Source: Dysgonomonadaceae bacterium PH5-43 (GTDB taxonomy: Bacteria > Bacteroidota > Bacteroidia > Bacteroidales > Azobacteroidaceae). From it: a stretch of 64,000 nucleotides of DNA. The translations under genes and the position numbers were made by a program. The notes beneath the pieces were generated by a model. It was not told where the DNA came from. It was given only the letters and a program-made list of their open reading frames with translations, and made no database searches. Shown in pieces: positions 5,102 to 63,786 of the stretch; the stretch's first letter is position 1; every line of letters begins with the position of its first letter. The stretch spans positions 1 to 64,000 of the forward strand of contig JARXWK010000009.1 in NCBI GenBank assembly GCA_029916745.1. Reading direction: 5' to 3'.

Positions 5102-6235
5102 TTAATTACATTTAATTGCGATACATTCCATTTCTATTAACCAACCAGGTCGGCAAACTGGAGCCAACACTAATACTTTAGGAATGTCAGGAAATTTATT
5201 GTCGAAAAGCTCTTTTACAGTATCATAATCAGCAACATCTCTCAAGTACACTATTAAGTGAGCAACATCTTGATAAGAACATTCGGCTTCGGCAAGTAAT
5301 ACTTCTACATTCTCCCACATACGTTCAGTTTGTTTGCGTATATCCCCTACGTGAACTATTTGTCCTTTGTTGTCAATGCTTGCAGTTCCCGAAATAAACA
5401 CGTGGCGACGATCGTCATATTTAACGCAAGTGCCACGCTCAAAGCTTACGCCATATTCGTGAGTTGGGTTAAGATGAGTAGGAGCATAAAGATATTGAAC
5501 TTGCTGTTGAGATATTCCTTTTACTGCATAGGTATCCATCTGAACAAATACTTTAGGGTCGGCATTACGTCCTGCAATACCAGTGCTTGATATAAAGTGA
5601 GTTTTGTCTGTTAGATTTTGAGTAACGAATACTTCGTTTCGTGCTTTTACTACACCAGCATAATTAACATCGACATTTTGAACAAACAACCAAGTGCGAA
5701 TGCAATTCTCGGCTAACGTGCAATTATTGTTGGTAAGTTGCATTATATAGTCGTTAAATATTAAACGTGTTTGATATTCAGAGTTGGCTGCTTTATTAAA
5801 AGCACTACCTCCCCAAAGGTGAGTATAGGGGCTGTTTTTATGTTTAACCTGAAATAAATTGCTTTCCCATTGCGCCTTTTCTATATCTGATTGAAAATAT
5901 GCCCACAGAGCAACCTTGGTTCCGTTCAGAGGAGGTTGTTCAACCATAGATACTGCACACTCTTTAGGGTTAGTGATCATACTTTGCAGTAGTTCGCTTT
6001 GATTAGCTATATCGCTTAGAAAGTATCTTTTAAACACAGGAGAAGCTCCATTCAGTTCTTCTTTACTTAATATATCGCAAGTGTTAAATAACGACAATAA
6101 TTGTTCATTAAGCGTTAGTTTTGAATTTGTTATCTTTATTATAACATTATATTCTTTTACGTTCTCTACTTTTTCTAAAACAGAAATCTCAGCTAATGTG
6201 TTCTTTTCTCTATATTCTTTTCTTATATATCTCAT
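5102..6235 (-). CDS. Rid/YjgF-family protein with long N-terminal extension
   Basis: A 377-aa cytoplasmic protein without a signal peptide. The C-terminal part (about residues 255-377) looks like a Rid (YjgF/YER057c/UK114) fold, with segments such as GTASIDNKGQIVHVGD and a terminal IEMECIAI strand. Rid proteins hydrolyse reactive enamine/imine intermediates or act as related deaminases. The N-terminal 250 residues are larger than a simple RidA (about 130 aa), and part of them may be a second, diverged Rid-like domain, as in FkbO/Hyg5-type chorismatases. I do not assign a substrate. Its place inside a haem/iron operon, 12 nt after the cytochrome-like lipoprotein and 3 nt before ccsBA, is clear but its role there is not. 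Confidence 0.6.
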   Translation of the reverse strand: MRYIRKEYREKNTLAEISVLEKVENVKEYNVIIKITNSKLTLNEQLLSLFNTCDILSKEELNGASPVFKRYFLSDIANQSELLQSMITNPKECAVSMVEQPPLNGTKVALWAYFQSDIEKAQWESNLFQVKHKNSPYTHLWGGSAFNKAANSEYQTRLIFNDYIMQLTNNNCTLAENCIRTWLFVQNVDVNYAGVVKARNEVFVTQNLTDKTHFISSTGIAGRNADPKVFVQMDTYAVKGISQQQVQYLYAPTHLNPTHEYGVSFERGTCVKYDDRRHVFISGTASIDNKGQIVHVGDIRKQTERMWENVEVLLAEAECSYQDVAHLIVYLRDVADYDTVKELFDNKFPDIPKVLVLAPVCRPGWLIEMECIAIKCN

Positions 6236-8215: not shown

Positions 8216-9715
8216 TTATAAGCTTCTTAAGAATGCAAGAAGAGCATCTCTGTCTTCTTTACTCATTTTTCGGAAAAGTTCTCTTGATACTGCTCCTTCT
8301 CCTCCATGCCACATTATAGCTTCTGTTAAGTTACGAGCACGTCCGTCGTGTAAAAACTGTGTATGCCCGTTTACAGTTTCCTGTAATCCTAAACCCCATA
8401 GAGGAGTAGTGCGCCATTCGTATCCTGCAGCAAGCCCAGAAGGATAATGGTCGTTTAATTCTTGTCCCATATCGTGTAAGAGAAAATCGCTATAAGGGTG
8501 AATTACTTGTCCGCTTAACCATGGAAGTTCGGTTCCGTTAATAAGAGCAACTCTTGATGTACGAGTATGTAAAGTAGGTGTATGACAAAGTTGGCACTTT
8601 GCGGCATAAAAATTCTCTTCACCTTTCTTTATTACCGCATTAAATACATTACGGCGAGCAGGAACTCCCAAAGCGTGCATATATAAATCTACATCTTCCA
8701 TCTCTTCACTTGTTATTTGCATACCGTGATGTCCATTAGGGAACGTTTGATTATATTGATCTTGATTTTGCGACACTTCTTCGGGATACCTATCGTTGGT
8801 AACTCCTAAATCTGACGAGAATCCAAGTTCGATTGTTAAATCAGCATGTTGAGACTTATTTCCCGATATACCAATTTGTTTTACCCCACGCTCAACAATA
8901 TAGTTTAACCGACCACTAATACCGTATTCGGGATAGTTGCTTTGAGCTTCAAGACGTTTGAGTTCTTCTAAATCTAAAGCCATCATCTGTCCCATACCTA
9001 CATGGCGAAGAGGAACTCTTACACTTACAATCAGATCTTCGGCTTTCAGAGAATCGGCATACCATTCGGTTATTCGGTAATGAGGTGTGGCAAGTTCATA
9101 CTCTTCTCCATCTGGGAAAGAATACCTTTCGTAAGTATACTCAGCTACAAGTTTTCCTTCGGGTTCAACACCTATTATTGATGTTTGATCGTGAAGCACT
9201 CGACCATAGTTTCGCATAAAACCTCCATCTTTACGCGTTATATAAACAAGACAAGAAGAAAAGCCTGTCTTCCCGCTACCGCCATCAGTCCATAGAGTAC
9301 TTGAAGTTCGTCCTGCATTATTATGGCAACTGCCACAAGAGAATCCGACATACACTGGTCCTAAACCGCCCATATTAAAATCGTTTACTTCAGGAATACG
9401 CCTATCATCGTAAAGGAGATCGCCTTTTAAGAAACGGGTATACAAATCTCCTGTTACCCAAGATGCAGGTGTATCGTAAGCATACCTTGATGTGCTAAAT
9501 ATAGTAGCCGTACCTGCCGATAGTTCTTCGTAGCTTGCATATTCACCAGTTGATGTGTTTATTATTTGGTTTTCTATTACATTATCTTCGTTGCACGAAC
9601 TGAAAAACAGAACTATGCAAAAACACATAAAACAAGCTGTGTAATACAGCTTGTTTATGCGCTTGGCTACGTAATTAATCTTTCTATGTATTACACAGAA
9701 ATCTTTTATGTTCAT
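8216..9715 (-). CDS. DUF1111-type di-haem oxidoreductase lipoprotein
   Basis: A 499-aa exported protein with two c-type haem motifs: CGSCH (C127-H131) and CQLCH (C374-H378). The C-terminal region (LPWLSGQVIHPYSDFLLHDMG, TPLWGLGL, FLHDGRARNLTEAI) matches the putative di-haem peroxidase/thiol oxidoreductase family DUF1111. The N terminus has a basic stretch, a hydrophobic core and a lipobox FFSSC with C41. The first 25 residues are unusually long for a lipoprotein signal, so translation may begin at an internal Met. DUF1111 genes commonly sit beside imelysin genes, as here. The activity of the family is not firmly established. A redox role in iron handling is the usual inference. The haems would be attached by the operon's own CcsBA. 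Confidence 0.85.
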   Translation of the reverse strand: MNIKDFCVIHRKINYVAKRINKLYYTACFMCFCIVLFFSSCNEDNVIENQIINTSTGEYASYEELSAGTATIFSTSRYAYDTPASWVTGDLYTRFLKGDLLYDDRRIPEVNDFNMGGLGPVYVGFSCGSCHNNAGRTSSTLWTDGGSGKTGFSSCLVYITRKDGGFMRNYGRVLHDQTSIIGVEPEGKLVAEYTYERYSFPDGEEYELATPHYRITEWYADSLKAEDLIVSVRVPLRHVGMGQMMALDLEELKRLEAQSNYPEYGISGRLNYIVERGVKQIGISGNKSQHADLTIELGFSSDLGVTNDRYPEEVSQNQDQYNQTFPNGHHGMQITSEEMEDVDLYMHALGVPARRNVFNAVIKKGEENFYAAKCQLCHTPTLHTRTSRVALINGTELPWLSGQVIHPYSDFLLHDMGQELNDHYPSGLAAGYEWRTTPLWGLGLQETVNGHTQFLHDGRARNLTEAIMWHGGEGAVSRELFRKMSKEDRDALLAFLRSL

Positions 9716-28473: not shown

Positions 28474-28509
28474 AGTACGTAAAAGCTAATAATTTATTGC
28501 AAGTTTGTC

Positions 28510-28661
28510 GTTTCACCCGTATGAAACAGGTTGTTTTATTAGTATGAAACAAAGTGTTTCACCTATATGAAACAAGTGTTTTCAAACCGTGAAACGAATT
28601 ATATCAAACCGAGAAACGGATCGTTTCAAAGTATGAAATGGATTATGTCTATGTATGAAAC
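28510..28661. repeat. Family A array: GTTTCA-N6/7-TGAAAC units, 22-23-nt period
   Basis: About six and a half units of the form GTTTCA, 6-7 variable bases, TGAAAC, then 3-5 bases. Each unit is an imperfect palindrome. The arms can pair within a unit or with the next unit (TGAAAC to GTTTCA), giving two alternative hairpin registers. It lies between converging genes, after the carB terminator. Related arrays occur at 45721, near 56960 and at 63615. Confidence 0.8.
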
Positions 28662-28663
28662 AA

Positions 28664-28684
28664 AAAGGCTTTCAGCCTTTTTTG
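28664..28684 (+). terminator. Short terminator-like hairpin
   Basis: AAAGGCT, loop TTC, AGCCTTT and more T residues. It directly follows the family A array and is a back-up terminator in the converging-gene gap. Confidence 0.6.
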
Positions 28685-28725
28685 AACTAAGAACTAAGAG
28701 TGAATAACTAAGAGTTGCTGTTAGT

Positions 28726-32721: not shown

Positions 32722-33507
32722 ATGAAGATAGAACTTCCTGATAATATAAACTTAGATTATCTCGATAAATATATATTGTCGATATTAATCGATAAACAAT
32801 ATTCTTTTTCTTTATACAACAAAGAAACACAAAGCGTTGACTTTTACTATACTTTGAAATCTAATAAGAATAATGCTTTTACCGATTTTCAGGATTTAAT
32901 GTTCGAAAATGAGTTCTTTACGTCGACCTTTGGTAAGGTTTATATCATAAACTATAGCGATAGGTACACTCATATTCCCGAAATACTTTTCGATGAGAAA
33001 GATAAAGAATCATTTATGAACTTTCTTTTTTCAGACAAGTTAGAAAAGATACTTTCAAATACAGTAAACGAGACAGGTATTGTTACGCTTCATTCTATTA
33101 ATGAAAATATTTACGACTTCTTTCATCGTTCGTTTGTAGATTTTGAATTGACACATTATACAGTTCCTATTATTTCTTATCTACAAAACATAGAGAGTAG
33201 CAATAGCAAACAAATGTTTTTCAACAAATCCAACACCAGATTAGATGTATATTGCTTCTTTCATAATAAACTACAACTTGTAAATAGTTTCGATTGTAAT
33301 TCAAACAACGAAGCTGTATATTATTTGTTATTAATATGGAAGCAATTAAAGTTAGATCAGATGAACGACTTTTTATATTCTCTATCTTACAATGAAGAAA
33401 TACTTGAAATATTAAAGACTTATATCAACAAAGTTGAGACATTAGAATATCATAACGATATAGACAAAAACGTTCCTTTTGAAATACAAATATTATGGAA
33501 TACATAA
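32722..33507 (+). CDS. DUF3822-like protein
   Basis: A 261-aa cytoplasmic protein. Its pattern matches DUF3822: short strands at the start (ILSILIDKQYSFSLYN), an FTSTFGKVYIINYSDRYTHIPEILF segment (about 67-91), and an FELTHYTVPIISYLQ segment (about 141-155). It suggests an actin-like or ASKHA-type fold of unknown function. In Bacteroidota this family usually sits directly upstream of rsmD. Here the last 13 bases overlap the ATPase gene, and rsmD comes only after two inserted genes. Confidence 0.6.
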   Translation: MKIELPDNINLDYLDKYILSILIDKQYSFSLYNKETQSVDFYYTLKSNKNNAFTDFQDLMFENEFFTSTFGKVYIINYSDRYTHIPEILFDEKDKESFMNFLFSDKLEKILSNTVNETGIVTLHSINENIYDFFHRSFVDFELTHYTVPIISYLQNIESSNSKQMFFNKSNTRLDVYCFFHNKLQLVNSFDCNSNNEAVYYLLLIWKQLKLDQMNDFLYSLSYNEEILEILKTYINKVETLEYHNDIDKNVPFEIQILWNT

Positions 33508-34337
33508 AAGAAATTAAATTAGATAATCTGTGGGGGTCTTCTCGTAATATTCATTGGGAAAACTTACACCCGCACGTTAATATTTTAGTAGGAATTAATG
33601 GTTCGGGGAAAACTTCGTTACTTAATGTTTTATGGGGAAGTATTAATGAAGATTTTCGTCCTCTTAAAAAGTATAAAGTAAACGGCATTACCATAGAAAC
33701 TGTTAATGCAGAAGAGGAAACAACTACTCCTCTTCGCATATTAAAAAAGAGTAATCCTTACATTGCTATAGGTGATACTAATTTTGGCACTGAGTTTATC
33801 AGCACTTTCGACGTTATTCCCTCCAATAAGTCAAAACTTGACACACCTCTTACTACAGAACTTTTAGATGTTATCTACACAACAGGCAAAGGCAGAAACT
33901 CTTTCTTCGATTATCGACTTAAAACAAGCAATTTCCCCGAAAGAGCAGCCGAAATAAACGCAAATATTCAGTGGCTTTATAAACTTATCAACAAACAATT
34001 TGAAGCTACTAATAAGAAAATAATGATTGATGTTGATTCTAACAAATTGGTATTTAAGCAGAACAACGACATAATACACCTCGAAGAACTATCGTCTGGA
34101 GAAAAACAATTCCTATTGATAATATTCAAAGTATTTTTAATGGAGAAAAAGCCTTTTGTTTTGATAATGGACGAACCTGAAATCTCTTTAGACATAGATT
34201 GGCAATTCGATTTAATAAATATAATTCACGAACTAAACCCTAATTGCCAGATAATAATATCAACACACTCGCCAAGCATATTCGGAGACGGCTGGGGCGA
34301 TAAGGTTGTGTATATGGAAGATATTACTAAAATATGA
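33495..34337 (+). CDS. ABC/SMC-type AAA ATPase of a PARIS-like pair
   Basis: A 280-aa ATPase with Walker A GINGSGKTS (33-41), signature LSSGEKQ (199-205), Walker B VLIMDEPE (222-229) and an H-loop histidine at STHSP (H258). This is the AAA_15/AAA_21 layout without transmembrane parts. The next gene encodes a DUF4435 protein with 4-nt overlap. An ATPase plus DUF4435 is the composition of PARIS (AriA-AriB), where the ATPase cage holds the effector until a phage trigger appears. This ATPase is shorter than typical AriA, so the pair may be a minimal relative or a housekeeping version. It overlaps the preceding DUF3822 gene by 13 nt. Confidence 0.75.
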   Translation: MEYIKEIKLDNLWGSSRNIHWENLHPHVNILVGINGSGKTSLLNVLWGSINEDFRPLKKYKVNGITIETVNAEEETTTPLRILKKSNPYIAIGDTNFGTEFISTFDVIPSNKSKLDTPLTTELLDVIYTTGKGRNSFFDYRLKTSNFPERAAEINANIQWLYKLINKQFEATNKKIMIDVDSNKLVFKQNNDIIHLEELSSGEKQFLLIIFKVFLMEKKPFVLIMDEPEISLDIDWQFDLINIIHELNPNCQIIISTHSPSIFGDGWGDKVVYMEDITKI

Positions 34338-35302
34338 AAGTTCAATCTCCACATAAAATACGACACTACAAATCTTTAGCAAATTACTATAAAAACCTTC
34401 CTATAAGACAGAGAAGGGTTAAGGCATCGGTGCACTTAGAGTCGGGAGATGACGTTCATTTTTGGAAAACAATATTCAAACATTATTTCCCAAAAGACAA
34501 TTTTCACTTCATAACCTATTCGAGAAGTCATTCGGGCAACAATGCTACTGGTAGCGCACAATGCTTAGCTTACAAAGATTACCTAAGCAAAGAGTTTGTT
34601 GTGTGCATTGATAGCGATTATAAATACATTTCAGGATACCCTAACATCGACATAAATCATTTCATATTTCAAACTTATACTTATTCGTTCGAAAATCATA
34701 ATTGTTACAGTGCCGGACTTTCAGATGTTTGTAAGGCTTCGACTGGATACGACAACAATTACTACAACTTTGAAAACTTTTTTGTTGATTATTCTAATAT
34801 CATCTTCGACCTCTTTGCTTGGCATATAGCATTATACAGAAGAAATCATAAAGCATTCCCTATCAAATCTTTTCTGGAAGTTATAACTCTACAATCAGGT
34901 TCTAATGATATTTACAATGAATCAAAGGAATTTCTTTACACCATTAATATAAAGGTGCAAAATAAAATTAGAAAGCTCCGAAAAGATTATCCTTCAATAA
35001 ATATTCATAAAGAAAAAGAGCATTTGTATTCTTTAGGTATCCACGACGACAATGTTTATCTTTTTGTGCGAGGACATAATATTCACGCTCTGTGTGTATC
35101 TATTGGCAGAGATGTTTGTAAGTGGATACTTAATGAAGAAAAAGGCAAGTCGTATAACTCTCCTGATAAAATTAGCAAGTTATACAATGAACGAAGAACT
35201 TTCAAAAGTAAGATAAGGAACAATATACTTTTTGAAGAATACCCCGAAATACAAAAGATTGGGGAAGATATGAACTATTACAAATCTTTATTTAATAAAT
35301 AA
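34334..35302 (+). CDS. DUF4435 (TOPRIM-like) protein of a PARIS-like pair
   Basis: A 322-aa protein. The N-terminal part has the DUF4435/TOPRIM pattern: an acidic residue in ASVHLESGDDVHFW (E36) and DSD in VVCIDSDYKY (D93, D95). These could coordinate metal for nucleic-acid cleavage. The C-terminal half is basic and helical (KVQNKIRKLRKDYP) and may bind RNA or DNA. In PARIS the AriB effector is a DUF4435 nuclease that cleaves host tRNA once released. By analogy this could be a toxic effector kept in check by the ATPase upstream (4-nt overlap). It is followed by rsmD after one base. No transposase or integrase flanks the pair. Confidence 0.75.
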   Translation: MKVQSPHKIRHYKSLANYYKNLPIRQRRVKASVHLESGDDVHFWKTIFKHYFPKDNFHFITYSRSHSGNNATGSAQCLAYKDYLSKEFVVCIDSDYKYISGYPNIDINHFIFQTYTYSFENHNCYSAGLSDVCKASTGYDNNYYNFENFFVDYSNIIFDLFAWHIALYRRNHKAFPIKSFLEVITLQSGSNDIYNESKEFLYTINIKVQNKIRKLRKDYPSINIHKEKEHLYSLGIHDDNVYLFVRGHNIHALCVSIGRDVCKWILNEEKGKSYNSPDKISKLYNERRTFKSKIRNNILFEEYPEIQKIGEDMNYYKSLFNK

Positions 35303-40896: not shown

Positions 40897-40991
40897 ATAC
40901 ATTAACATATAGAACCATTTTCGACCAGAATCTTATCATAATCTTGTTGACTTAATTTTATATTACTCACACAGTCAACTATCTGACAAAT

Positions 40992-41084
40992 AAAAAAAGG
41001 GAGTGCCTTTTAGTATCGACACGCCCTTGATAATAGTTAAGGTAAGTAAAATGGGTTAGGATAATTATATCTTGATATATAATT
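40992..41084 (-). ncRNA. Predicted small RNA in repeat copy 1
   Basis: A minus-strand promoter lies just upstream: -33 TTG (41119-41121), a 20-nt spacer and -7 TACTTTTG (41091-41098). The transcript would be about 93 nt. It has a 5' AT hairpin (ATTATAT/ATATAAT), a single-stranded middle with CCTAACCCATTTTACTTACC, then a terminator hairpin AAGGGCGTGTC/GGCACTCCCTT (one mismatch) followed by seven T residues. The same unit is in copy 2 with a perfect stem. There is no coding potential. Expression is not shown. Confidence 0.6.
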
Positions 41085-41090
41085 ATAACA

Positions 41091-41121
41091 CAAAAGTAAC
41101 ACATATATTTATACTTAGCAA
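41091..41121 (-). promoter_or_regulatory. Promoter of the small RNA, copy 1
   Basis: Minus-strand TTG, 20-nt spacer, TACTTTTG. This is a full -33/-7 match, conserved in both repeat copies. Confidence 0.6.
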
Positions 41122-41439
41122 GTGTTTTGTTAAAAATATTTCTAAAACTCTTGAATGTATTTCGGGGTTTATATATGGTTTTTTAGAATTTCAAGACTTT
41201 AGTTTTGTTTTTTACCTCTTAATGTGCTGGTATATAATATAATACAATAATATTTTGTTTGTAGTTGTGTGCTATTAGATTTGAATTAAATTACATTTTG
41301 ATTTGAAATTTCTATTAAGTGCATTTAATGTGCAATTCAAAGTATATTAAAAAAGTAATAAAATCATTTTTTAATTCAAGTAGTGAAAGAGTGATAAAAT
41401 ATATATTCATTATAAATCACACATACATCTATAATATTA

Positions 41440-41560
41440 TGATAAAATCAAAAATGCCATTTCTTGCGAAGGTGTATTAAGATAATAGTTAAGAAGCTTA
41501 AATGGATTAGGAGCGTTTATATTTTTATATATAAAAGAATATACAAAATATAATATATAT
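41440..41560 (-). other. Diverged second copy of the small-RNA unit inside repeat copy 1
   Basis: On the minus strand this reads an AT palindrome (TTTTATATATAAAA), then TCCTAATCCATTTAAGC and TTCTTAACTATTATC. These correspond in order to the AT hairpin, TCCTAACCCATTTTACT and CTTAACTATTATC of the small RNA at 40992. A weak hairpin and GCATTTTTG follow in place of the strong terminator. The -7 box is poor (spacing off by one). It is also present in copy 2 (about 45565-45690). Confidence 0.5.
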
Positions 41561-41741
41561 GCTTATATGACACAGGCATTTTTAAAAATATATTTTATCG
41601 GACAGAAATAAAATTCTTTAGTGTAATCAAGTTTTGTCGATGATTTTGTTGACCGCCATTAACTTTGATTTGTATAGTTACTATAGTTCGAGACAAAGCT
41701 AAAGTTTTATCGGATAACAATAATTCATAGTAGATGGTGGA

Positions 41742-44672
41742 CTATTTCGATTTTCGGGTCGCTTCCTTTAGTTCAGCAACTAACTCTATTGATTCCAATC
41801 GCATAATAGTATCATCTGAATTGCCAAAGTCAAATAGCCCAAAACTTCCATACCAAACAAGTTGGTTATCTATAATGATGTACTTCTGATAGACATTTGA
41901 TTCTTGCATAACCGTAAATTTGGATTGGAGCATTTCAATACATTTCTTCGCTCGTTCTTGTTCCTTATATGATTCTATGGGGAGAGTGATAACCTTTATG
42001 GAAATGCCAGCTTGCAGAGCGGCTTCCAGCCATTCAAAAATTATATGAAGTTGCCTTTTTCGAATATAAGGGCTTGCAATCCATATTTCTTTCTTCGCAT
42101 TGGAAAAGTCGTTCCGTATGATTGGTATAAACGTCTCACAATCATAAATCATACTGATTCCGTCTGGTTTATTCTTTGAGACTAAGGTCTTATACCCAAT
42201 TTGGGAATAACCAGCAAGACGCTTGTGATACATACGCTCCAATACGGGGATATGGACATCTACATAGTCGTAAACAATTACATCTTGTTTGCCTGGATAT
42301 TCTCGATGCAGTCGCCCTGCATATTGCGCTAACGTTCCTTTCCAAGCTACCGGAGAAGCCAGAAACAATGTGTCCAAACGAGGATAGTCAAAGCCTTCAC
42401 CAATATATTTGCCTGTTGCGATTATTATTAATTTTTCGCTTGGCAGAATAGTCTCTAATGAAGTTGTCATCTCCTTTTTTAATTTTGTCGAAACAGATCC
42501 AATAAGGGTGATAATATGTGCATCTGTTTGCCCTTGAAGAATAGATGCCAACTGCATAACATGCTCTGTTCGTTGCGTAAGAATAATGGGCGTTCTTCCG
42601 TTTATTATGGCATCAATTACGTCTATGGCTATCTGTTGGTTACGCAATTCATCCTCTGCAAGAGCGGTATATATCTTCGTAATATGCCAGTCGGCTTCAG
42701 TTTGAGTTAAGGACTTTCTAAAATTTGTAAAACACGGAATAATATAGTGTTCGAAGTCTCGCTTTCCGGCTTCTTCTTTTGCATTGACGTTATATCGTAT
42801 TGGTCCGCAAAGCATAAAAACAATCGGATGTTGCCCGTCCTGTCGACTGGGTGTAGCCGTTAAGCCATAAACATATTTGGCATTTGTTTCGCTCAATACC
42901 TTTTCAAAGCTAAGCGATGAGGCATGGTGACATTCGTCCACAATGACCATTCCGTAGTTCTTCACTATTTCATCCACTTCATTTTCATGAATCAAACTTT
43001 GAACAAGCGCAATATCTATAATTCCAGATGAACTGTTTTTGCCAGAAACGATTTGTCCAATGATTGAACGTACCTTCTTTCTTCCCCGCTTCTTTTCCGG
43101 CTCGGGCAAATATTCGTTTATTTCAAGGAATTGCTCCAACGATTTCTTCCATTGGTCGCATAAAGTTTGCAAATGAACTAATATTAGCGTATTACATTTT
43201 CTGTTTGCAATAAGCGAAGCGCCGATAACTGTTTTCCCAAAAGCTGTAGGGAGAGATAATATACCATTTTCATGCTGAAGTAGTGTTTCTGCTGCTGAAT
43301 GTTGCTCTTCCCGTAGAGTCCCTTTGAAATTTACATCTATCTGCCTTCCTGCATTTCGTTTATCATCAAAAACAGCCTCTACGCCTGAAGCATCAAGTAA
43401 TTGAACAAGCGACAAACGACAGCCGCGAGATATTCCAATATAATCATCTGTTTCGTCTAATGAATAGATAATCCTCGGAATACCATACGTTGACATTCGC
43501 ATCTTCTGTATTTTATAGAAGAGAGGATTCTGGAATGCCGCCAACCGTTTTATACGGTTAAGTGCCCGAGGACCTACATTCTCTTTTGAAACATACAATC
43601 GGTTTGCTTCTACAATAGTAAGATACTCTGGAAAGTCTTTTTTATCAAGGTTGCTCTCTGTCTTCTTACTCTCCCAAGGCTTGAACAAAGTAGGTTCTTC
43701 TTTTTCCATACTACCAAGCTCACCCAATCCATTGCCTTCACATAATTGGGCAAGCAAACTCTCTATCTCTTCCAGATTCATTTTTCGAATAGAAGCCAGA
43801 TATGCCCATTGGTCGAGGTAACTATCAAAGTTTTCATCCACAAACTCACTATTACCATTCAGGCGTGCTCCACCTTGAAGAGGCAACGCAATCAGGTTGC
43901 CCAACCCACCTTTGGGCATAAAGTCTTGATTGGGAAACATCCGATCATACGAAGAAAAGCGAATCTCGGATCTAACAGACATAGCCTTTGTTAACAGGGC
44001 ATTTCCTAGCCTTCGTGCTGTTATTGCTGGAATAGGTTCTTCAAAGAATATCCATACATGTGCTCCATTCCCCGAACGGGAACGTTCAATAGCGACCGGG
44101 ATATCATACGTATTACAGACCGACCGAAAAGCTCTTATATCTTCCGTCCATTTCTCCTCATCAAAATCAACGGCAAGAAATAAACAATTCTCATCCGACA
44201 ACAACGGGTAGATGCCAACAATACCAGCTCCATGTTCATCTTTATTGCGTAAATGGCTATTAATAACCTCTTTTGTCAAAGGCAATAAATCCCGATTAGG
44301 ACATTCTTTACATTTGACACGGGCTTTGTCGCAAAGCCCTTTTACCCATTCGTTTTTACATGCCGGAACATAATAGCTACTTTCATGTTTCTTGCTGTAG
44401 CAACGTTTTGCATAAACATCTGTCCGCCCTCGAAATAACGATAGATACAGCTCTATCTTCTCATTGGGAGTGCTATATTTATTAATCGAATGAATAGAGC
44501 TTTCTTTTGTATCTTTCTGTTTAGGTATATCCAATACCTGCACTTCCTCTTGAAAAGTCGGTTCTTTCCTGGGAAGCCCCAGCATATTCCGAAGCTTTTC
44601 ATTTTCTACAAGTAGTTCACTGTTTAGTGCTTGCAATTCAGCTATCTGCTTTAATAAATCGGGATCAGGCAT
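41742..44672 (-). CDS. TOTE-type primase-helicase-PLD protein (conflict system)
   Basis: A 976-aa multidomain protein. Residues 5-32 form a coiled coil. A cysteine cluster (C105, C114, C121, C124) leads into an archaeo-eukaryotic primase domain (about 130-300) with catalytic DFD (169-171) and SGNGAHVW (200-207). A superfamily 2 helicase follows: Walker A TAFGKT (476-481), DECHH (579-583), TATP (605-608) and QYAGRLHR (783-790). Last is a PLD-like domain (about 850-965). This is the architecture described for TOTE conflict systems, thought to act against invading DNA. The PLD motif reads YQKYIIID where HxKx4D is expected, so the catalytic His appears replaced and nuclease activity is doubtful. 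The gene stands alone between two 650-bp direct repeats. Confidence 0.85.
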   Translation of the reverse strand: MPDPDLLKQIAELQALNSELLVENEKLRNMLGLPRKEPTFQEEVQVLDIPKQKDTKESSIHSINKYSTPNEKIELYLSLFRGRTDVYAKRCYSKKHESSYYVPACKNEWVKGLCDKARVKCKECPNRDLLPLTKEVINSHLRNKDEHGAGIVGIYPLLSDENCLFLAVDFDEEKWTEDIRAFRSVCNTYDIPVAIERSRSGNGAHVWIFFEEPIPAITARRLGNALLTKAMSVRSEIRFSSYDRMFPNQDFMPKGGLGNLIALPLQGGARLNGNSEFVDENFDSYLDQWAYLASIRKMNLEEIESLLAQLCEGNGLGELGSMEKEEPTLFKPWESKKTESNLDKKDFPEYLTIVEANRLYVSKENVGPRALNRIKRLAAFQNPLFYKIQKMRMSTYGIPRIIYSLDETDDYIGISRGCRLSLVQLLDASGVEAVFDDKRNAGRQIDVNFKGTLREEQHSAAETLLQHENGILSLPTAFGKTVIGASLIANRKCNTLILVHLQTLCDQWKKSLEQFLEINEYLPEPEKKRGRKKVRSIIGQIVSGKNSSSGIIDIALVQSLIHENEVDEIVKNYGMVIVDECHHASSLSFEKVLSETNAKYVYGLTATPSRQDGQHPIVFMLCGPIRYNVNAKEEAGKRDFEHYIIPCFTNFRKSLTQTEADWHITKIYTALAEDELRNQQIAIDVIDAIINGRTPIILTQRTEHVMQLASILQGQTDAHIITLIGSVSTKLKKEMTTSLETILPSEKLIIIATGKYIGEGFDYPRLDTLFLASPVAWKGTLAQYAGRLHREYPGKQDVIVYDYVDVHIPVLERMYHKRLAGYSQIGYKTLVSKNKPDGISMIYDCETFIPIIRNDFSNAKKEIWIASPYIRKRQLHIIFEWLEAALQAGISIKVITLPIESYKEQERAKKCIEMLQSKFTVMQESNVYQKYIIIDNQLVWYGSFGLFDFGNSDDTIMRLESIELVAELKEATRKSK

Positions 44673-45063
44673 ATCGTACTTGTTTTTTACATTACTTACA
44701 ATAATTTAACCCTACTATCTAACTGCAAAAAATAATCATTCGACAGATATCCAATTCTTTACTGAATCGGGTAAGTTCATTAAAAATTATCAAGCAAGTA
44801 TCTCTATGTAACTCTTCCAGTGTTATTGCTTGCATTACTTCGTATATTGTATTTTCTTATGCTTATTGGTTTTTATCTCGTCCCTTGAGAGATCCGTATT
44901 ATAAATTAATTACCGAACAAATATAATAAATTTTACGCACTTAGTCTTATATAATAAGACTAACTACACAAATACTACTAAGCCGAAGGGTGCTGAAACA
45001 TTCGAGAAAACACTCTCCAAGTTTGATAATTTTGCAAGCCTGAAGACGTGATAAGGATTATTA
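44673..45063. other. Non-coding region upstream of the TOTE gene
   Basis: About 390 bp without a credible gene. The clearest element is a perfect 10-bp inverted repeat at 44941-44963. No exact TAnnTTTG box was found on the minus strand near the TOTE start, so its promoter is not located. Confidence 0.5.
44941..44963. promoter_or_regulatory. Perfect inverted repeat upstream of the TOTE gene (operator candidate)
   Basis: TTAGTCTTAT, 3-nt spacer, ATAAGACTAA: ten perfect base pairs 270 bp ahead of the TOTE start. There is no T run, so it is not a typical terminator. It could be an operator or recombination site. Confidence 0.35.
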
Positions 45064-45122
45064 TTATCATAATCTTGTTGACTTAAATTTTATGTTACTC
45101 ACACAGTCAACTATCTGACAAA

Positions 45123-45217
45123 TAAAAAAAGGGAGTGTCTTTTAGTATCGACACGCCCTTGGATAATAGTTAAGGTAAGTAAAATGGGTTAGGATAATTA
45201 TATCTTGATATATAATT
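45123..45217 (-). ncRNA. Predicted small RNA in repeat copy 2
   Basis: Homologue of the RNA at 40992-41084. The promoter is at 45224-45254 (TACTTTTG with TTG 20 nt upstream). The terminator stem AAGGGCGTGTC/GACACTCCCTT has one internal mismatch (G opposite A) and no other, so pairing is better than in copy 1. A minus-strand T run follows. Sequence differences avoid the central single-stranded segment. Confidence 0.6.
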
Positions 45218-45223
45218 ACAACA

Positions 45224-45254
45224 CAAAAGTAACACATATATTTATACCTAGCAA
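45224..45254 (-). promoter_or_regulatory. Promoter of the small RNA, copy 2
   Basis: Minus-strand TTG (45252-45254), a 20-nt spacer and TACTTTTG (45224-45231). Confidence 0.6.
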
Positions 45255-45720
45255 GTGTTTTGTTAAAAATATTTCTAAAACTCTTGAATGTATTTCGGGT
45301 TTTATATATGGTTTTTTAGAATTTCAAGACTTTAGTTTTGTTTTTTACCTCTTAATGTGCTGGTATATAATATAATACAATAATATTTTGTTTATAGTTA
45401 TGTGCTATTGGATTTGAATAAATTACATTTTGATTTGAAATTTCTGTTAAGTGCATTTAGTGTGCAATTCAAAGTATATTTAAAAAGTAATAAAATCATT
45501 TTTTAATTCAAGTAATGGAAGAGTGATAAGATGTATATTTATTATAAATCACACATACATCTATAATGTTATGATAAAATCAAAAATGCCATTTCTTGCG
45601 AAGGTGTATTAAGATAATAGTTGAGAAACTTAAATAGGTTAGGAGTGTTTATATTTTTATATATAAAATAATATACAAAATATAATATATATATGCTTAT
45701 ATGATACAGGCATTTTCTAC

Positions 45721-45873
45721 ATTGAAACGTATTATTTCATATGATTAAAACGTATTATTTCACACATTGAAAGAATTTGTTTCTTACATTTAAACTACCC
45801 GTTTCATACTAATGAAACTACTTGTTTCATATAGGAGAAACACTTTGTTTCATACTGGTGAAACTACTTGTTT
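45721..45873. repeat. Family A array, reverse orientation
   Basis: Six to seven units of about 23 nt in which TGAAAC-type and GTTTCA-type arms alternate (for example ATGAAACTACTTGTTTCAT). They are the same as the arrays at 28510 and 63615 but entered half a unit later. The array directly abuts the end of repeat copy 2. The region from here to 46006 holds nothing else recognisable except a short duplicated CCGTGATC near 45961. Confidence 0.75.
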
Positions 45874-46006
45874 GTTGCTGTTAATGTTTTAGTTGACTGT
45901 TCTTCGGCTTAATTAATTGCAAAGTCGGTTGACTCGGTTTATGCTTTGTTGATAATTTTTCCGTGATCCGTGATCCTAACTGATTGATAATAAGCCTAAA
46001 AACAAA

Positions 46007-46034: not shown

Positions 46035-46043
46035 CCTGTTTTG

Positions 46044-46125
46044 TGCGGCTGAAGGGACTCGAACCCCCACGCCTCTCGGCACCAGATCCTAAGTCTGGCG
46101 CGGCTACCAATTACGCCACAGCCGC
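46044..46125 (-). tRNA. tRNA-Leu (anticodon UAG)
   Basis: Minus-strand cloverleaf. The acceptor GCGGCTG pairs with CAGCCGC and the discriminator is A. The anticodon stem CCAGA/TCTGG encloses loop CTTAGGA with anticodon TAG, decoding CUA leucine codons. A long class II variable arm (TGCCGAGAGGCGT) and a GGTTCGAGTCC T-loop are present. CCA is not encoded. Length is 82 nt. Confidence 0.95.
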
Positions 46126-50825: not shown

Positions 50826-50882
50826 AAGACATTCCCTTTTATTTATTTTATCAGATATTTGACTATGTGAGTAACCTAAAAT
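50826..50882 (-). repeat. Inverted fragment of the 650-bp repeat
   Basis: The minus strand here reads TTACTCACATAGTCAAATATC and continues TGATAAAATAAATAAAAGGG. It aligns to GTTACTCACACAGTCAACTATCTGACAAA...AAAGGGAGTGTCTT at the start of the 650-bp repeat, with roughly 50 of 57 positions identical and two small insertions. The fragment stops inside the small-RNA terminator stem. Orientation is opposite to the two full copies. Confidence 0.65.
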
Positions 50883-50894
50883 GCAAAGCTTCAC

Positions 50895-51160
50895 TTAGGG
50901 TCTTCTCTCTACTAAGAGACCCCTTCTCTCTCTTAGTAGATAGGCGAGGTCTCTCTACTAAGAACGGCGGGGTGCTTTAAGTACTAAGGCGAGGCGGTTC
51001 TATTAAGAGCGGTATGGGGTATCTACTAAGAAACACCTCGCCTATCTAGTAACAACGACAAGGGGTATCTAATAAGAAGCAACCCTCATCTCTAGTAACA
51101 ACGACAAGGGGTATCTAATAAGAAGCAACCCTCATCTCTAGTAACAACGACAAGGGGTAT
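50895..51160. repeat. Family C array between parC and nadA
   Basis: About eleven units of 22-24 nt. Each has a TCTACTAAGA- or TCTAATAAGA-like half and a G- or C-rich half (GGCGAGG, ACAAGGGG, CCACCCCT-type). The last 2.5 repeats are an exact 46-nt doublet (TAGTAACAACGACAAGGGGT followed by ATCTAATAAGAAGCAACCCT), showing recent expansion. Fragments of the same family are at 28726-28820 and near 88-120 at the window start. Confidence 0.75.
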
Positions 51161-63614: not shown

Positions 63615-63786
63615 GTTTCAGCCGTGTGAAACGAGTTGTTTCAGTTAGGTGAAACAGGTTGTTTCATCAGTATGAAACAAGTAGTTTCAATAGGGTGAAA
63701 CAAATAATTTCGAACCGTGAAACGAATTATTTCAAAATAAGGAAACAGATTATCTCAAAGTATGAAACGAGTAGTTTCAAAGCAAG
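63615..63786. repeat. Family A array, best preserved copy
   Basis: Seven and a half units: GTTTCA, 6-7 variable bases, TGAAAC, then RAGTT-like bases. Unit lengths are 23, 23, 23, 23, 22, 23, 22. Variable bases differ in nearly every unit while arms are conserved, which suggests selection on the palindrome. It lies between converging genes and ends beside a terminator. Confidence 0.85.

Follow-up and report, generated by a model that had tools for sequence, protein, structure and literature searches.

The window analysed here, a stretch of 64,000 nucleotides from contig C9 of Dysgonomonadaceae bacterium PH5-43, harbours a gene for a 976-residue protein between two non-coding blocks of like orientation. 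The gene is the single intact open reading frame between the blocks (minus strand, 41742-44672), and in its product the AEP DFD and H motifs, Walker A, Walker B (DECH) and motif VI are all conserved. The protein also matches PLDc_2, yet the histidine of the HKD motif is a tyrosine in the window's clade and a histidine in the sister clade. This loss extends across the clade (YQK for HQK in the window gene, L054-L061, L068, L071 and L083), with the remaining protein conserved. The neighbouring genes encode a pterin-binding enzyme, CdaA, a Mur ligase, an S41 peptidase, a DUF3316 protein and topoisomerase IV subunit A. Elsewhere in the window, positions 33495-35302 carry an AriA/AriB pair, the PARIS anti-phage system (AAA_15/21 ATPase and DUF4435; PADLOC E 2e-95 and 2e-80), and the segment directly upstream of it (32722-33507) gave no PADLOC match. 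At 272-2821, two type II methyltransferases surround a 222-aa open reading frame that appears HNH-like by eye, forming a probable restriction-modification (RM) cluster.

The original prediction had placed the gene among TOTE-type conflict genes, which holds at the level of domains: as in TOTE systems, the protein carries an AEP-TOTE primase domain (PF22548) and an SF2 helicase. According to the part of PMC12458937 that cites Aravind, Iyer et al. 2022, however, TOTE (TPR, OB, TBP, Effector) conflict systems are defined by their partner genes. The window gene, in contrast, stands alone, and TPR, OB/cold-shock and TBP partners are absent both from the window and from the sampled homologous loci, so that a TOTE system is not established despite the AEP-TOTE domain. 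The thirty-odd homologues stem mostly from gut-type Bacteroidales genomes and occur in varied neighbourhoods (AbiEii, Schlafen-AlbA, DUF4143, RhuM, housekeeping genes); matches were also found on 266 plasmid records, mostly distant or partial, and none in viral contigs. One related genome (G013) contains several fragments and pseudogenes of the gene on contigs C36, C7 and C97 (L189, L196 and L195, respectively), which suggests repeated gain and decay.

Extent and ends of the flanking blocks

The left block (40933-41582) and the right block (45064-45716) lie on the same strand and are 95.6% identical over 654 bp (E ~1e-303, far beyond chance), bearing out the proposal of 650-bp direct repeats of about 95% identity around a lone 976-aa gene. 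No transposase or integrase was found among the open reading frames of the gene-block unit, again as anticipated. The unit and its surroundings comprise the following features:

40933-41582, plus strand: left block, the 5' 650 bp of the element with the 3' tail missing; it stops at the point from which the other copies continue into the tail repeat
41583-41741: spacer from the left block to the stop codon of the gene, unique in the sequence compared
41742-44672, minus strand: gene for the 976-aa AEP-TOTE primase / XPB-like SF2 helicase / PLD-like protein (Pfam PF22548, E 3.6e-97; PF04851; PF13091)
44673-45063: spacer from the gene start to the right block, single copy in the sequence compared, with a -7 box at 44925 on the minus strand
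45064-45955, plus strand: right block, the full element (TTATCA...TGATAA), shared over its full length with the copies on contigs C5 and C4 at 95-97%
45712-45880: tail of 23-bp units rich in GAAAC/TTTC, also dispersed elsewhere in this genome as an intergenic repeat
46043-46125, minus strand: tRNA-Leu, with the right block ending about 88 bp away from its 3' end

With its -7 box, the spacer at 44673-45063 is the probable promoter and leader of the 976-aa gene. The blocks had been described as having precise ends and unrelated outer flanks, and both statements need amending on the right-hand side. A precise right end does exist and is common to three sites, but position 45716 is merely where the left-right similarity stops, and the right block runs on to 45955. 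Since the C5 and C4 copies match its whole length, the left block is a 3'-truncated copy, which lacks the last 240 bp of the element, including the GAAAC-rich tail. The flank is unrelated on the left side; what had been taken for the outer flank on the right is the tail, which recurs in the window at 28497-28701 and 63615-63735 and also in L025 (4417-4567) and L027 (5181-5397), in the latter two between two convergent tRNA genes. The block end on C5, like that of the right block in the window, lies within about 90 bp of a tRNA-Leu 3' end (tRNA-Leu(CAA), L009 4916-5000).

Within 379 kb examined (15% of this genome), no repeat without overlap to a large open reading frame exceeds the block in size; the only longer repeat, a tandem one of 1.6 kb, overlaps a 510-codon frame. 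A second dispersed repeat family (CTACTAAG/GGCGAGG, ~200 bp) is found in the window at 50826-51123, upstream of the gene for topoisomerase IV subunit A, next to a 57-bp stretch related to the 5' end of the block.

Block copies and gene relics in the genome

We searched the whole genome (2.54 Mb in 46 contigs) for the block and found four long copies at three loci, two on C9 and one each on C5 and C4, together with a fifth, internally deleted copy at the end of contig C15. The right copy on C9 and those on C5 and C4 have ~870-890 bp in common and stop at the identical point, ...GCTTTGTTGATAA, a sequence with exactly three occurrences in the genome, while the element's left end is present in two places only, at 40933 and 45064. 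On C5, a relic of the 976-aa gene is fused to the block, and the two are oriented as in the window. This relic matches the window gene at 90% of amino acids and 85% of nucleotides, compared to at most 71% and 73% for other homologues; it is thus the window gene's closest relative, indicating that gene and block were duplicated together within the lineage. The C4 copy preserves the same gene-block junction, though with only ~28 bp of the gene, and its similarity to C5 extends over 910 bp. The surmise that gene and block form a duplication unit is thereby supported. Each of the three copies with a right end has the gene or one of its relics next to it, identically arranged and oriented, so the block is not a widespread sequence that never occurs near the gene; as C4 and C5 are of common ancestry, however, these pairings do not represent three independent associations. 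No block was detected in plasmids, phages or viral contigs, in 47 other genomes of the family, or beside the loci of the ~30 other homologues. Direct repeats of ~52 bp around the C4 copy were considered as a feature of the block unit and discarded, as related sequence occurs elsewhere (L203) and probably represents a dispersed terminator repeat.

The right block on C9 and the C5 block are 97% identical, compared to 85% for the adjoining gene sequence, a difference that would fit homogenisation of the blocks. An alignment of the four long copies contains 21 sites at which two copies differ from the other two, and these fall into three uninterrupted runs (shuffle p 5e-5): four sites join left and right against C5 and C4, the next eight left and C4 against right and C5, and the last nine left and C5 against right and C4. 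Two of the 21 sites belong to one indel and three to one hairpin, making the effective number somewhat lower. A mosaic of three runs is the expected signature of exchange between copies, by recombination or gene conversion, although assembly chimerism could mimic it. With three clean partitions along four copies, the view of the blocks as substrates of homologous recombination has fared well.

Origin of the bracketed arrangement

The reading we favour, at about an even chance, is that the window contains a lineage-specific gene-plus-repeat cassette that has been duplicated and homogenised by homologous recombination. The cassette would consist of the AEP-helicase-PLD gene with a non-coding block of 0.65-0.89 kb upstream, the window holding the intact copy; it would have been duplicated inside the genome (C9, C5 and C4), with the gene decaying in two places, and its blocks would have exchanged sequence through gene conversion or homologous recombination. 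A further block, truncated and presumably placed on the gene's other side by recombination and not by transposition, would turn the C9 locus into a recombination bracket, from which the 4.1-kb interval could be excised or amplified without a transposase. We infer that such excision happens, and that the gene probably spreads or is lost via recombination between block copies. A search for the empty site by synteny near cdaA yielded none, the gene order downstream of cdaA being different in the relatives examined.

Long repeats around a gene can also arise by other routes. In those parts of PMC3031569 and PMC3874152 that cite Nobusato 2000 and Furuta 2010, RM systems are described as inserting with long target duplication. 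The window resembles such insertions in its defence-type gene, the lack of a transposase, the long same-orientation repeats on both sides and the possibility of amplification or loss by recombination. Had it arisen likewise, gene and spacers would have entered a pre-existing block and duplicated ~650 bp, giving the geometry of RM insertions with long, variable target duplications (PMC3031569, PMC3874152, PMC4978471). A comparable case might be the homologue in Bacteroides sp. 519 (L061), located between 210-bp direct repeats of 90% identity, 32 and 10 bp from the gene. These repeats (5759-5968 and 8926-9123) contain half a terminator, a leader and the opening codons of the host gene that follows, are found nowhere else in that genome and, by analogy to the RM insertions, likely represent a long target duplication; in 99 other genomes of its group, a search for the empty site did not find the locus. 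The window repeat, however, is not a unique target, adjoining relics at two other loci; unlike the repeats of RM insertions, it is non-coding with its own sRNA-like unit, has been duplicated with the gene elsewhere, and exceeds the reported duplications, which are of the order of 100 bp. Nor do flanking direct repeats qualify as a general property of the homologous loci, most of which are without them: 2 of 23 such loci, one of which is the window itself, chosen for its repeat, share a repeat of at least 100 bp between their two 1.2-kb flanks, compared to 1 of 324 control genes, and the signal is weak once the window is set aside. On balance, we consider an insertion of this type unlikely.

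It seemed conceivable, too, that the block is a non-autonomous, MITE-like element, bounded by TTATCA and TGATAA, which inserted twice at this locus with the gene as a bystander. As in composite transposons and MITEs, same-orientation repeats bracket a gene and the repeat ends are discrete, the left end being identical in two contexts and the right end in three; a transposition-like process, too, would fit a right end shared precisely by three sites. The 6-bp inverted ends and the internally deleted copy on C15 are likewise in keeping with such an element. Yet the inverted ends span 6 bp only, no target-site duplication was apparent at any copy by inspection, and the unit contains no transposase, nor is an autonomous partner known. 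Moreover, the C5 and C4 copies have no left end, and the right ends number only three, all next to the gene or its relics, which makes a mobile element of this kind a rather poor prospect.

An assembly artefact, with repeats collapsed or misjoined, might be suspected in an assembly of 46 contigs, one of which (C15) ends in the repeat tail. The C9, C5 and C4 copies are embedded in long unique flanks, however, the left and right blocks differ at ~4% of sites, and the C4-C5 junction is consistent, so we regard an artefact as improbable.

The candidate small RNA and its relation to the gene

Each block contains two related units on the minus strand:

40987-41121, minus strand: unit A of the left block, with the same promoter, hairpin, core and terminator signatures as its right counterpart; covariance model 166.6 bits
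41444-41573, minus strand: unit B of the left block; covariance model match, E 0.07
45119-45254, minus strand: unit A of the right block, with -33/-7 promoter-like boxes, a hairpin, an unpaired core and a terminator; covariance model 173.8 bits
45576-45703, minus strand: unit B of the right block, a divergent relative of unit A; weak covariance model match (E 1.7) in the expected place

Small RNAs of Bacteroidetes have TTTG / TAnnTTTG promoters and intrinsic terminators. In every copy, unit A displays a promoter pair of this type (TTG / TAnTTTTG) on the minus strand, followed by a hairpin of 7-10 bp, the conserved unpaired core CCTAACCCATTTTACTTACCTTAACTATTATC and a strong hairpin with seven T; the predicted RNA of the right block would extend from ~45219 to 45119. 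Unit B, at a distance of 450 bp, is 75% similar over 90 bp, with a weak fold and no good terminator. Unit A resembles Bacteroidetes small RNAs in its promoter boxes, its ~100-nt size and its 3' hairpin with a T-run, but differs from them in having no Rfam family and in being known from this genome alone. In the C4 copy, two pairs of the first hairpin are changed on both sides relative to the left and right blocks, with pairing kept. Across the copies, 97% of hairpin cells are paired, compared to 43-65% with partners slid, although this comparison involves four sequences only and the counts are matched or exceeded in 128 of 500 shuffles; the AT-rich palindrome could be a DNA feature instead of an RNA hairpin. 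Searches of the blocks against Rfam (gathering score or E up to 5) returned no family, and ARAGORN found no tRNA in them, the tRNA-Leu outside the block being the only RNA. Of the earlier claim that the blocks carry RNA genes, there remains a plausible sRNA-like gene, unit A, with a predicted transcript that we expect to be made, plus a decayed second unit; support from Rfam or ARAGORN did not materialise.

Could this RNA act together with the enzyme? A functional pair, in which the primase-helicase protein uses the RNA from the block or is regulated by it, would account for a structured sRNA-like unit with promoter, terminator and two compensatory double changes, and for right-end copies that in this genome always lie by the gene or a relic in one orientation. 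Against this, the covariance model detected unit A in this genome only, with no match in 47 other genomes of the family or at homologous gene loci, antisense pairing between the RNA core and the gene leader is not significant (rank 19 among 229 genes, p 0.16 by shuffling), and intact RNA units stand beside dead gene relics. We consider such a partnership very improbable, and the block-encoded RNA is probably independent of the enzyme. As block and RNA are absent from the 47 family genomes and from the ~30 other homologues' loci, the evidence lends no support to an RNA component of TOTE systems, nor to the suggestion that the RNA belongs to the conflict system. The core's best antisense matches to other leaders look incidental and were rejected as targets. 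Least credible of all, and scarcely to be expected, is a self-copying, transposase-free unit of protein and repeat-encoded RNA, in which the protein would help to prime or recombine the RNA-bearing repeats.

The gene-plus-repeat cassette provides a testable case of a defence-type gene that would be spread and lost by recombination of non-coding repeats and not by a transposase, with its decayed copies documenting earlier events of this kind. If the mosaic is true, the block would make the surroundings of a stand-alone AEP-helicase gene a natural hot spot of recombination, and the small RNA predicted in the block would be an undescribed, lineage-specific RNA gene.
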